Assembly: GCF_040448685.1 (NCBI RefSeq)
Contig: NZ_CP159290.1
Location: 4,216,001 to 4,280,000 of the forward strand
Length of the DNA stretch: 64,000 bases
Reading direction: 5' to 3'
From: Cellulosimicrobium sp. ES-005
Lineage (GTDB): Bacteria; Actinomycetota; Actinomycetes; Actinomycetales; Cellulomonadaceae
The notes under the pieces are model-generated. The model searched no databases. It saw only the letters and a list, made by a program, of their open reading frames with translations, and was not told the DNA's origin. Each line of letters opens with the position of its first letter. The stretch's first letter is position 1. This document shows, piece after piece, positions 760-58,327 of this stretch. The position numbers and the translations under genes are program-made.

Positions 760-829
760 CGAGATCGGCCCGTACGGCCGAGATCGACCTTCGGGAGGTC
801 GACGTCGCGACGTCCGGGTCGATCTCGCG
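760..829. repeat. 70-bp nested palindrome, copy A1
   Basis: Starts CGAGATCGGCCCG and ends GGGTCGATCTCGCG. Four cores related to GAGATCGACC lie in +,+,-,- order, so an outer stem (bases 1-17 with 53-68) encloses an inner stem (20-31 with 36-48). By my count it matches the copy at 56519 at 59 of 70 bases. It lies between the rplQ terminator and the hydrolase promoter. Confidence 0.85.
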
Positions 830-54407: not shown

Positions 54408-55301
54408 GTGCCCGAGCCCACCGCCCCGCGTTCGTTCTGGGCGGTCGCCCGCCAGCCCCGCGTGGTCGGCCTGCTCGTGCTGTTCCTCCTGGCCGCCGCC
54501 GTGTGCGCACGGCTCGGCGTCTGGCAGCTCGACCGCGCGCAGCAGCGGGCCGAGCTCGCGGCGCAGCAGGAGGCCGCGGAGCTCGAGGCCGCCGGGCCCG
54601 AGGGCGTCGGGGTGCTGCTCCCGCCGCAGTCCTCCTTCCCGGGCGAGCTCGTCGGTCGGCAGGCCTGGGTCGAGGGGGAGTACGACCCGGAGGGCCAGCT
54701 CCTGGTGGAGAACCGTGCGCTCGACGGCCGGGTGGGCTACCTCATCCTCACGCCGCTGCACGTGACCGACGACGGGACGCAGGGCGCGTCGTGGGCCGGT
54801 CTCTCGGGCGCTCCCGTGCTGCCCGTGGTCCGCGGCTGGGTCGAGACGCCCGAGGAGAGTGCCGCGCTCGACCCGCCGGACGGCGTCGTGCGGCTCACGG
54901 GCTACCTCCAGGCCTCGGAGGCCGCCGGCCAGGGCGGCTCCGCCCCGGGGCTCACGGACGCCATCTCGACCGGGGCGCTCGTCAACGAGTGGGGCGGACC
55001 GATGTACTCGGGGTACCTCGTGCTCCTGTCGTCCGACCCCGAGCAGCCCTCGGCGGCCGAGGGCGGCCCGGCGCAGCTCCCGCGCCCGACGATCGAGGGC
55101 GGCACGGGTCTCAACCTCCAGAACCTCTTCTACGCGCTGCAGTGGTGGGTGTTCGGCGGCTTCGCCGTGCTGCTGTGGATCCGCCTGGTGCGCGACGAGG
55201 CGGCGGGCGGCAAGCGCCGCACCCGCGGTGACGGCGGCGGCATCGCCGGCCTCCCGGACCCCGCCGAGATCGACCCGCCCGGCTCGACGTCGACCTCCTG
55301 A
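54408..55301 (+). CDS. SURF1 family protein
   Basis: SURF1 proteins are two-helix membrane proteins that aid cytochrome c oxidase assembly. The 297-aa product has an N-terminal helix (PRVVGLLVLFLLAAAVCARLGVWQLDRAQQR in parts), with LGVWQLDR the family hallmark, a large outer domain (VRGWVETPEES, GYLQASE, SGYLVLLS) and a C-terminal helix LFYALQWWVFGGFAVLLWI (~245-263). The last 11 codons (EIDPPGSTSTS) lie inside the palindrome at 55265. No oxidase gene is in the window. Confidence 0.9.
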   Translation: MPEPTAPRSFWAVARQPRVVGLLVLFLLAAAVCARLGVWQLDRAQQRAELAAQQEAAELEAAGPEGVGVLLPPQSSFPGELVGRQAWVEGEYDPEGQLLVENRALDGRVGYLILTPLHVTDDGTQGASWAGLSGAPVLPVVRGWVETPEESAALDPPDGVVRLTGYLQASEAAGQGGSAPGLTDAISTGALVNEWGGPMYSGYLVLLSSDPEQPSAAEGGPAQLPRPTIEGGTGLNLQNLFYALQWWVFGGFAVLLWIRLVRDEAAGGKRRTRGDGGGIAGLPDPAEIDPPGSTSTS

Positions 55302-55334
55302 GGGTCGATCTCGGACGTACGGGTCGACCTCGCG
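55265..55334. repeat. 70-bp nested palindrome, copy A2
   Basis: Same 70-base length, same ends (CGAGATCG ... CTCGCG) and same four-core order as the copies at 760 and 56519, with the centre shifted one base. Its first 37 bases are coding, ending SURF1. It lies between two converging genes and may terminate both. Confidence 0.85.
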
Positions 55335-55372: not shown

Positions 55373-56509
55373 TCACCGACGAAGAGCCCGCTCGACGCGC
55401 CGCACGATCGTCGCCGGGTCGCCCAGGTCCGCCCAGACGACCCGGAGCACGACCCACCCCGCCTCCACGAGCGCGTCGTGCCGCGCCTTCTCCTGCTGCA
55501 GGCGCGACCGCGGGTCCCCGAAGTCGCCACCCGAGTACTTGACCGCGCCGTCGAACTCCACCGCGACCCGGTGCTCCGGCCAGCCGAGGTCCACCCACAG
55601 ACTCCCGCGCCACGTCGGGACCTCGAGCCCGGGCACGGGAGCCGGCAGCCCGGCGTCGTGCACGACCCACCGCACGACCGACTCCCCGGGCGACTCCGAC
55701 CGGGCGTCCGCGAGCCCGACGACGGCGCGTGCCCGGCGGACGCCGCGCCGCCCCGCGGCCTCCGCGAGCAGGGCGCCGAGCACCGCCGGGTCGGCCCCCG
55801 CGCGCAGCGCCGAGTCGGCGACGACCAGAGCCTGCGCTCCCGGCAGGGAGCGGGCGCAGTCCACGACCGTGCGCTCCAGCGTCGTGACCGGGAGACCTGC
55901 GACGAGGGTGCGGTCACGGACCGGGAGCGGGGTCCAGTGCCGGCGGAGCGCCGGCTCGCGGGTCTGCGCCGCCTTGGGCGGGCGGAGCTGGGTGACGTGG
56001 ACGACGTCGGCCAGCCGCCAGGTCCAGCAGCCGTGCAGCAGCGCGGCGCTCGTGTGGCTGAACCAGTACGCGCTCGACAGCCGCTCGGCGACGGCGCTGA
56101 CGCGACGCAGCACCAGCTCGCGGCGGAGCTGCGCGGGGCTCGCGTCGGCAGGGACCGGCGGGAGGTAGACGCCGCGCCGGACGCGGTCGAGGGTCCCGTC
56201 CCGGGTGCGGCGGGCGAGCTCCGTGCGCCGCTCCTCCGAGAAGCGGGTCGCCGTCGGCGGGACGGGGCGCTCGGTCCGGCGGTCGTCGTCGGGGCGCCGG
56301 GGCGCGGCGTCGGGAGAGGTGACGTCCGCACGCCCGTCCGACGACGTGCGGCCCGGTGGGGTGTCGCGGGCGGGCGGCTCCACGGGCGCGGCGTCGCGCG
56401 CCGGGGTGGCCCGGGGCAGGGTGTCGATCGGCGGGATGTCGTGCGGCATGGTGCCGAGCGTGGCCGACGCGGGCGGGACGCGGGGCGTCACGCCGTGGTC
56501 TGTGGACAA
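55373..56509 (-). CDS. AbiEi-like/DUF559 endonuclease-fold protein
   Basis: A two-part protein, up to 378 aa. A Pro/Arg/Asp-rich tail (~1-85) precedes an AbiEi-type winged-helix region (RTRDGTLDRVRRGVYLPP, FSHTSAALLHG). The C-terminal domain is DUF559, a Vsr/PD-(D/E)XK-like nuclease fold: LWVDLGWPEHRVAVEFDGAVKYSG with Asp and Glu-x-Asp, then KARHDALVEAGWVVLRVVWADL. Many actinobacteria have several such genes of unknown role; AbiEi is an antitoxin fold, but no toxin gene adjoins. The start (TTG 56509, GTG 56491 or ATG 56449) is uncertain. It is bracketed by 70-bp palindromes. Confidence 0.75.
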   Translation of the reverse strand: MSTDHGVTPRVPPASATLGTMPHDIPPIDTLPRATPARDAAPVEPPARDTPPGRTSSDGRADVTSPDAAPRRPDDDRRTERPVPPTATRFSEERRTELARRTRDGTLDRVRRGVYLPPVPADASPAQLRRELVLRRVSAVAERLSSAYWFSHTSAALLHGCWTWRLADVVHVTQLRPPKAAQTREPALRRHWTPLPVRDRTLVAGLPVTTLERTVVDCARSLPGAQALVVADSALRAGADPAVLGALLAEAAGRRGVRRARAVVGLADARSESPGESVVRWVVHDAGLPAPVPGLEVPTWRGSLWVDLGWPEHRVAVEFDGAVKYSGGDFGDPRSRLQQEKARHDALVEAGWVVLRVVWADLGDPATIVRRVERALRR

Positions 56510-56518
56510 CCGAACCCG

Positions 56519-56588
56519 CGAGATCGACCCCAGCGTCCGAGATCGACCCTCTGGAGGTCGATCTCGAGACGGCCGGGTCGATCTCGCG
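56519..56588. repeat. 70-bp nested palindrome, copy A3
   Basis: Begins CGAGATCGACCC and ends GGGTCGATCTCGCG. It ends five bases before the last codon of the ABC exporter gene and starts ten bases upstream of the DUF559 gene. The inner stem is GAGATCGACC/GGTCGATCTC with a CTCTGGA-type centre. It can terminate the exporter operon. Confidence 0.88.
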
Positions 56589-56593
56589 GGCGG

Positions 56594-58327
56594 CTACTCC
56601 TGCTGCCAGGAGTGCCAGAGACGGGCGTAGTCGCCGCCCGCCGCGACGAGCTCGTCGTGCGGGCCGATCTCGCTGATGCGGCCGTCGTCGACCACGGCGA
56701 CGCGGTCGGCGTCGTGCGCGGTGTGCAGGCGGTGCGCGATCGCGACGACGGTCCGGCCCGCGAGGACGGCGTCGAGCGAGCGTTCGAGGTGGCGGGCCGC
56801 GCGCGGGTCGAGGAGCGACGTCGCCTCGTCCAGCACGAGCGTGTGCGGGTCGAGGAGCACGAGCCGCGCGAGCGCGACCTGCTGCGCCTGCGCGGGGGTC
56901 AGCACGTGCCCGCCCGATCCGACGGTCGTCTCCAGGCCGTCGGGCAGGGACTCCGCCCAGCCGCGCGCGTCCACGGCGTCGAGCGCGTCGCGGAGCTCGG
57001 CGTCGCTCGCGTCGACCTTCGCGAGCCGCAGGTTGTCCGCCAGGGTCCCGACGAACACGTGGTGCTCCTGCGTGACGAGCGCGACCTGACGGCGCAGGTC
57101 CTCCAGCGGCAGGTCGACGAGGCGGACGCCGCCGGAGCGCACCGACCCGGCGGTGGGCGGGTGGATGCCCGCGAGCATGCGCCCGAGCGTCGACTTGCCC
57201 GCGCCGGACGGACCGACGACGGCGAGCCGCTCGCCCGGCTCGAGGTCCAGCGAGACGCCGTGCAGCACGGGGTGGCCCTCGCGGTACGCGTACTCGACGT
57301 CGCGCGCGACGAGCCGGTCGCCGTCGGGCACGTCGCCCGTCGCGGTGCGGTCGCCGGGGACCTGCGCGACGCCGACGATCCGGGCGTAGGACGCCGCGGC
57401 GACCTGGATCTCGTCGAGCCAGAAGATGAGGTTCCACACCGGCCCCGCGAGCTGGAACGCGTACGTGGTCACCGTGGCGACCGCGCCGAGCGTCGTCTGC
57501 CCCTGCGAGAGCAGCCACGCGCCCCACACGAGCGCCGCGACGGGCGCGATCGCGATCGCGAGGTCGATGCCGGGGAACAGCACGGTGCGCAGCCCGAGCG
57601 TGTACTTCTCCGACTCGTACGCCTCGGTGAGGTCGGCGCGCACGCGGGCCTGGCGCCGCTCGGTGAGCGAGAGCGCGTCGACCGTGCGCGCGCCCTCCAC
57701 GTTCTCCGTGATGGTGCCGTTGAGCGTCGCGTACGCGGCGGCCTCGCGCTGGTAGCCCGCCGACGCGCGCCGGAGGTACCAGCGCGAGACGACGACGAGC
57801 AGCGGGACCCCGACGAACAGCGCGATCGCGACCAGCGGCGCGACGACGACCGACGCCACGACCGTGAGCACGAGCGTCACGACGGCGACGAGGAGCTGCG
57901 GCACGCCGAAGCGCACCGCGTGCTGGATGCGGTCGACGTCGTTGGTCGTGCGGGCGACGAGGTCGCCCGTGCCCGCGCGCTCGACCGTCGAGAGGGGGAG
58001 CGAGGTCACCGTCTCGACGAGGTCCTCGCGCAGCTCGGCGAACACCGTCTCGCCGAACACCATGGACAGGCGCTGGGCGTACCGGCGGAGCACCGCCTGC
58101 GCGACGACGGCCCCCGCGCCGACGGCGACGACCGTCGTCACGTAGGACGACGTCGTGCCCTCGGTGACGGCGTCGACGAGCCGGCCGAGCAGCCAGGGCC
58201 CGACGAGCCCGGCGACGGCGGCGAGGGTGTGGAGCACGGCGATGAGCACGAACGTGCCGCGGTGGCGGGCGAAGAGCCGCCCGGCGGCGGCGCGGACGGC
58301 GGGGCCGTCGGCGACGGGGAGCTTCAC
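56594..58327 (-). CDS. ABC exporter subunit, ATP-hydrolysing half
   Basis: A 577-aa half-transporter: six membrane helices (~20-310) fused to an ATPase. Walker A is GPSGAGKST (~372-380), Q-loop VTQEHHV, Walker B TLVLDEATS and H-loop IAHRLHT are normal. The signature, usually LSGGQ, reads LTPAQ (~472). It overlaps its partner upstream by four bases (GTGA) with a strong aggagg site, so they form a heterodimer. Cargo unknown (drug or lipid exporters of this type are common). Confidence 0.92.
   Translation of the reverse strand: MKLPVADGPAVRAAAGRLFARHRGTFVLIAVLHTLAAVAGLVGPWLLGRLVDAVTEGTTSSYVTTVVAVGAGAVVAQAVLRRYAQRLSMVFGETVFAELREDLVETVTSLPLSTVERAGTGDLVARTTNDVDRIQHAVRFGVPQLLVAVVTLVLTVVASVVVAPLVAIALFVGVPLLVVVSRWYLRRASAGYQREAAAYATLNGTITENVEGARTVDALSLTERRQARVRADLTEAYESEKYTLGLRTVLFPGIDLAIAIAPVAALVWGAWLLSQGQTTLGAVATVTTYAFQLAGPVWNLIFWLDEIQVAAASYARIVGVAQVPGDRTATGDVPDGDRLVARDVEYAYREGHPVLHGVSLDLEPGERLAVVGPSGAGKSTLGRMLAGIHPPTAGSVRSGGVRLVDLPLEDLRRQVALVTQEHHVFVGTLADNLRLAKVDASDAELRDALDAVDARGWAESLPDGLETTVGSGGHVLTPAQAQQVALARLVLLDPHTLVLDEATSLLDPRAARHLERSLDAVLAGRTVVAIAHRLHTAHDADRVAVVDDGRISEIGPHDELVAAGGDYARLWHSWQQE

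Follow-up and report, generated by a model that had tools for sequence, protein, structure and literature searches.

A dispersed nested palindrome of Cellulosimicrobium and the nuclease-like gene that lies between two of its copies suggest a repeat and enzyme partnership in actinobacteria

What is the 70-bp nested palindrome that lies downstream of rplQ in Cellulosimicrobium sp. ES-005, and is it more than a by-product of GC richness? The window analysed here (64,000 nucleotides, positions 4216001-4280000 of one 4,855,880-bp contig) contains three such elements (Table 1). The first-pass annotation had described them as 70-bp stretches that start with CGAGATCG and end with CTCGCG. This was borne out for all three, as were the 59 of 70 bases shared by copies 1 and 3 and the +,+,-,- order of the boxes, which gives nested stems in the window elements. 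Copy 2 is also a real member of the family, but its coordinates had been shifted (55265-55334); the fit is better on the minus strand, at 55263-55332. Identity to copy 3 on that strand reaches 87% over 68 bases, compared to 79% over 70 bases on the other. The view that the element belongs to no named family was also upheld, with 0 Rfam matches over the window at gathering score and no description in the open-licence papers searched. A long inverted repeat without a T run, at 670-711 of the window, lies 3' of rplQ and precedes copy 1.

Table 1. Coordinates of the elements, boxes and nuclease-like gene, counted from the first base of the window
Feature	Position	Strand	Remarks
Subfamily A element, copy 1 (element studied)	760..829	+	flanked by rplQ with downstream inverted repeat, and alpha/beta hydrolase gene
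Subfamily A element, copy 2	55263..55332	-	downstream flank of nuclease-like gene
AbiEi-type winged-helix gene with MTES_1575/DUF559 (Vsr-like) putative nuclease end	55373..56491	-	conserved part 55376-56275
Subfamily A element, copy 3	56519..56588	+	upstream flank of nuclease-like gene
Box 1 of copy 3, CGAGATCGACC	56519..56529	+	
Box 2 of copy 3	56538..56548	+	19 bp past box 1
Box 3 of copy 3	56556..56566	-	outer half shows the weakest constraint of all box parts in the family
Box 4 of copy 3	56576..56586	-	

The first-pass annotation had called for a genome-wide search with a covariance model, and this search found at least 34 full-length copies, so the stretches are not there by chance. A 70-base query and the covariance model of subfamily A (A1, 34 aligned copies) each gave 34 distinct full-length places, a lower bound since only 40/98 and 150/19,377 first-look candidates, respectively, were scored. 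The raw rows (74 for the query and 90 for the model) outnumber the places because a near-palindrome is hit on either strand, and the lists continue with weaker places after the full-length ones. In the subfamily A consensus, CGAGATCGACC occurs four times, oriented +,+,-,-, with a period of 19-20 bp and a short loop. Weaker matches of the model in the same genome revealed further subfamilies that have the same nested design, at 68-71 bp, with different box sequences: subfamily B (boxes CGAGATCGGC) occupies five places, and subfamily C (boxes CGAGGTAGAGC) four, plus one found by pattern scan. The element in genomes G145 and G150 is an almost perfect hairpin. All 34 subfamily A copies lie outside a 0.8-Mb region of this genome (G000, 1.75-2.57 Mb).

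The A model matched all 17 genomes of the genus (E<=0.001), weakly in G010, G013 and G015, where the best matches are B-like, and 46 of 150 sampled genomes of the family at E<=1e-5. These counts, along with the box-specific constraint described below, support the proposal of the first-pass annotation that the element is selected or mobilised, rather than a product of GC richness. A scan of the window for palindromes of any kind showed no excess (6 vs. 4-8 in Markov controls); when CGA/TCG ends were demanded the count was 64 vs. 21, in stretches that were partly selected for holding copies. Among the matches listed in a pattern scan of named genomes, 14 were inspected by eye: four, in Isoptericola, are elements, and the other ten resembled coding sequence or tandem repeats.

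We then considered where the copies lie, relying throughout on gene calls from a home-made gene caller. The genes on either side are codirectional for 17 of the 34 copies, convergent for 14 and divergent for three, compared to 12, six and 10, respectively, for gaps of at least 70 bp in the window. A stop codon faces the element within 20 bp in 22/34 cases. The right end faces a stop in 24/34 copies, at a median distance of 5.5 bp (0-9 bp in 18 of the 24), and the left end in 21/34, at a median of 20 bp (one-sided p 0.0008). An ABC transporter gene (56594-58327, minus strand), for example, has its stop 5 bp from the right end of copy 3. The copies are thus dispersed, extragenic and close to gene ends, as are the repeats of REP/RAYT systems. 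The stop-adjacent positions are probably sites where an element is tolerated, and copies located there may perhaps have acquired a later role in limiting read-through. Some elements reach into a reading frame: that of a SURF1-family gene (called at 54408-55301, plus strand) terminates within copy 2, with its stop at 55299-55301, and several subfamily C elements (L131, L151, L084) have an 8-bp overlap with the end of an ORF and apparently provide its TAG.

Copies so close to stop codons could be 3'-end RNA hairpins, acting as bidirectional terminators or mRNA stabilisers. The clustering of right ends within 9 bp of a stop and the 14 convergent sites are in keeping with such hairpins, and the three window copies are predicted to fold strongly (-39 to -50 kcal/mol). 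Pairing, however, is not maintained. The first-pass annotation had cited compensating changes in the arms; within the family these did not hold up, as 90.3% of cells pair vs. 90.4% after shuffling, with 333 of 500 shuffles as high, and a two-sided change is seen in only 3/28 pairs among the 34 aligned A copies (two of the 34 rows being in the orientation less favoured by the model). Compensation is found only between subfamilies, where the box sequences differ and the nested hairpin is kept. The earlier interpretation of a dispersed, selected, REP/BIME-like element stands, but without the compensating changes as its evidence.

Comparison of orthologous loci gave a similar picture. We used 43 of 48 pairs, involving 22 own copies, after excluding three doubtful and two same-species pairs; the orthologues were taken from model hits, so that decayed copies could be missed, and several pairs share an own copy. 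Boxes 1, 2 and 4 accumulated about 0.06 substitutions per site and box 3 (tallied one base late, at columns 39-49), the spacers and the loop 0.17-0.19, a roughly threefold slower evolution of the former. Changes in stem pairs broke pairing in 37 cases, made it in 36, kept it in 15 (one of them a double change) and left 57 unpaired. Together with the shuffle test, these changes lead us to reject conservation of an RNA structure within the family. Slow evolution of boxes 1, 2 and 4, combined with this lack of pairing maintenance, argues for selection on the DNA sequence rather than the hairpin, and the pattern of conservation points to the boxes being recognised as DNA. Copy 1, moreover, comes after an existing inverted repeat, 129 bp from the rplQ stop, and RNA hairpins would leave the nuclease-like gene between two copies unexplained. 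We consider a hairpin function of this sort quite improbable.

That gene, which the first-pass annotation had not mentioned, has copies 2 and 3 as its immediate flanks (Table 1); its start is a home-made call that is possibly about 220 bp too far upstream. The protein begins with an AbiEi-type winged-helix part, followed by a middle part, and its C-terminal part is a putative DUF559/Vsr-like (PD-(D/E)XK-type) nuclease. It matches the AbiEi model of PADLOC at 2.6e-21. The Pfam AbiEi_4 match (9e-5, 22.9 bits) is under the cut-off of 25, and that to MTES_1575 is weak (E 0.005, below the cut-off); the MTES_1575 signature is seen in six of eight homologues, three of these six having been found with that model in the first place. 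An EFDG...EK-like motif is common to proteins of the A/B group. The AlphaFold model is poor (mean pLDDT 48), and a search of solved structures gave no meaningful match (best E 0.51). The neighbours of the A gene are SURF1 and ABC transporter genes, and those of the B gene, a paralogue in the same genome (628117-629031), are helicase-C and epimerase genes.

The paralogue has B-type elements on either side, of which one is degenerate, and in G013 a homologue with 45% identity is likewise enclosed by B-like elements. These two cases prompted a wider test of gene flanks. MTES_1575 proteins in general were rejected as the partner: in this genus the top Pfam hits fall in long open frames, mostly of about 1,350-1,390 aa, and none of the listed copies is within 15 kb of the one in G000 (667305). 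We accordingly claim a partnership only for the small AbiEi-like lineage. An alignment of five of these proteins (A4) found homologues at E<=1e-20 in 126 of 150 sampled genomes of the family and in 29 of 296 genomes sampled across the phylum, own genome included in each count.

In the wider test, we aligned the left flank of every gene with its right flank and counted a score above 40 as a matching pair, a threshold chosen after inspection of the first 30 loci and the control. A matching pair was found at 60 of 70 loci of the family, namely 27 of the 30 best hits (26 before a later rule on over-long gene calls lifted locus L352 above 40) and 33 of 40 more that were hand-picked from the listed rows rather than comprising all matches. 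The 60 positive loci represent 11 of 13 sampled genera by hand count, although they are non-independent, with many from Cellulosimicrobium and one same-species pair. Outside the family, where 500-bp flanks were compared without gene calls, 19 of 28 loci were positive, at least one of them (L418) partly through low-complexity sequence. The score was at or below threshold at the remaining 10 family and nine distant loci. Among controls, matching pairs were found at 1/158 genes of G009 and 6/242 genes in named loci; four of these six are the A-type nuclease gene itself, whose removal leaves 3/396 (Fisher 5e-61 for the family and 2e-23 for the distant loci). The matched stretches of the 60 family loci have a median length of 72.5 bp, and 46 of the 60 are palindromic beyond shuffles (z>3). 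Box sequences are highly divergent between lineages. The two flanks are inverted in 31 cases and direct in 28 (n=59), an orientation that is hard to define for near-palindromes. At three loci of another genus of the family (L385, L398, L400) the match extends over about 107-140 bp and contains a larger number of box-like repeats.

An alternative reading is that the palindromes are operators, with an AbiEi-like repressor regulating its own gene and the dispersed copies serving as regulatory or decoy sites, not as products of a nuclease. According to PMC7319586, AbiEi of S. agalactiae binds two inverted repeats and Rv2827c four, with unequal affinities, at their own promoters. Our protein shares with these AbiE type IV toxin-antitoxin components a related winged-helix part and inverted repeats beside its gene, and box-level constraint is also what operators would show. 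The subfamily A model gives more rows in the five genomes of the genus that have an A-type gene than in the other 12 (median 62 vs. 15.5, p 0.01, phylogeny being ignored), which fits both operators and a repeat-spreading nuclease. Unlike the AbiE systems, however, the protein has a nuclease-like domain attached, its gene has repeats at either side with further copies dispersed, and no AbiEii-type (DUF1814) toxin gene is found among the neighbours of the A gene or the B gene, the two loci examined. The placement of the elements argues against operators: at the 59 loci where the strand was called, the median distance is 0 bp between the downstream element and the stop, and 142 bp between the upstream element and the called start of the gene, and divergent gene pairs surround just three of the 34 dispersed A copies. 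Operators are thus an unlikely explanation.

We next asked how specific the association of repeat and protein is. Over the 60 loci, protein identity correlates with repeat similarity (rho 0.52; 0.49 between genera), a value reached in 0/2000 permutations. Flanks of different nuclease genes within one genome scored above 40 in only one of 50 comparisons, and two nuclease genes of G168 have a common repeat type (0.50 on the co-divergence measure). The right flank of a locus was the best of 70 for its own left flank in only 13/70 loci, and 402/4830 cross comparisons between loci exceeded 40, because repeats are common to orthologous loci. As a predictor of the repeat, the winged-helix part is slightly ahead of the nuclease part (partial rho 0.26 vs. 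0.15). It should be noted that linked co-inheritance alone suffices to account for the co-divergence of repeat and protein.

A subfamily with inverted arms, GGTCGTACC, was taken from the flanks of three Isoptericola genes (L371, L358, L356) and searched for in 17 genomes. By hand count it occurs at 15 places in G078, 12 in G126 and seven in G168, two in each genome flanking the gene, at one place in G106 and at none in the other 13. It is thus multi-copy in just the three of 17 genomes where the cognate gene was seen, the nuclease genes of the other genomes having been partly read. The reversed pattern, used as a control, occurred once in G171 and once in G093.

To learn how copies are gained and lost, we compared orthologous sites between genomes. 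Four sites of G009 that lack the repeat show no target duplication, and one retains a remnant of 8-12 bp; the other three (4502529, 1397007, 291658) are occupied in other genomes. A fifth absence was found at 3670743. The remnant and the occupation of sites elsewhere make the first four absences look like losses, and no insertion event was caught among the sites compared. G005 and G009 keep A repeats even though their A locus carries another gene, a GNAT acetyltransferase gene in G009 and a 91% identical stretch in G005. The A locus as a fresh insertion was discounted: the nuclease unit is present in G008 and G012, which are more distant, and this makes loss or replacement in G005 and G009 likelier. 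The A repeats are therefore old in the genus: orthologous loci have either retained or lost them, and they survive in genomes that do not have the A gene.

The lack of an observed insertion leaves room for a third alternative, in which the elements are MITEs or REPs mobilised by an unrelated transposase and the nuclease-like gene is cargo or has its flanking repeats by coincidence. Pairs of A elements likewise enclose a cupin gene and other genes, and no insertion event ties the repeats to the nuclease. We regard this alternative as highly improbable, given the 60/70 and 19/28 matching pairs vs. 3/396 in controls and the way in which the repeat type tracks the protein lineage. A Y1 transposase (PF01797, E<=0.001), the only type searched for, was also found in none of the 17 genomes of the genus, while five of 14 control genomes were positive. 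A relation to integron attC sites was considered as well but not adopted.

Taken with the pairing at the flanks, the dispersal and the constraint on the boxes, our preferred reading is that the 70-bp element is probably a dispersed repeat that is non-autonomous and constitutes subfamily A in a repeat-nuclease system, with the cognate protein encoded between copies 2 and 3. This suggests a so far unrecognised repeat and enzyme partnership in actinobacteria. The winged helix would bind the boxes, four sites with a 19-20 bp period of which box 3 would be the weakest; the nuclease may then cut the bound palindrome or the DNA next to it, and the repeats could spread when the break is repaired or copied, as has been proposed for RAYTs and REPs. 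Under this scheme, the nuclease would mobilise the repeats.

The closest parallel is provided by REP/BIME/REPIN repeats and their RAYTs. In Nunvar 2010 (PMC2817692), the rayt gene is described as flanked by two REPs, with which it coevolves, and rayt presence as correlated with the abundance of the cognate REP. Our elements are similarly palindromic and dispersed, with an enzyme gene flanked by two copies and repeats that diverge along with it. They differ in that the protein has an AbiEi-type winged helix and a DUF559/Vsr-like end in place of a Y1 transposase, and in being about 70 bp long with four nested boxes and no unpaired GTAG head; in subfamily C boxes, GTAG is inside the stem. The system thus resembles REP/RAYT in its logic but is not a member, since the Y1 transposase that defines such systems is missing from the 17 genomes of the genus searched.

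A second parallel is with the CGTC-tagged REPs, which, according to Di Nocera 2013 (PMC3733652), have stems of 8-9 bp, loops of 4-5 bp and a short unpaired tail, and which exemplify REP-like repeats with no known mobilising enzyme. Like our elements they are palindromic and close to the 3' ends of ORFs, apparently without a dedicated transposase, but they have a single 8-9 bp stem where ours are nested four-box elements of 68-71 bp. The word 'Actinobacteria' does not occur in the main text of that article. None of the open-licence papers searched describes a pairing of gene and repeat such as that seen here.

On the enzyme side, Vsr-like (EDxHD) homing endonucleases are a similar nuclease family tied to selfish DNA. 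To our knowledge, they work with introns or inteins, or alone, and not with dispersed palindromes, and we know of no case in which an AbiEi/DUF559-type fold moves DNA. We see about an even chance that the elements represent an undescribed kind of selfish DNA, present in much of the phylum, in which AbiEi/DUF559 proteins recognise and spread their own nested palindromes and subfamilies turn over as nuclease lineages diverge. Such a class would be an independent counterpart of REP/RAYT with a different enzymology. The repeat is now linked to one specific, testable protein with homologues in many genomes, and an uncharacterised nuclease-like family gains a predicted substrate, sequence for sequence, so that protein-DNA recognition may be decoded by comparison.

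Some pairs of A elements enclose other genes. In G000, a cupin gene (1441400-1441956), a META-domain gene and a hydrolase gene (289095-291727) and a sigma-factor-like gene (3923263-3925375) each lie between two A elements. All four A pairs less than 3 kb apart, that of the window included, are in minus-then-plus order and resemble possible cargo units. Gene content also changes right at the ends of elements (window position 56588; L137, 4808-5365; L064, 3174-4113): the META gene adjoining the copy at 289095 is missing from G001 and G009, and in G007 a small additional gene adjoins copy 3.
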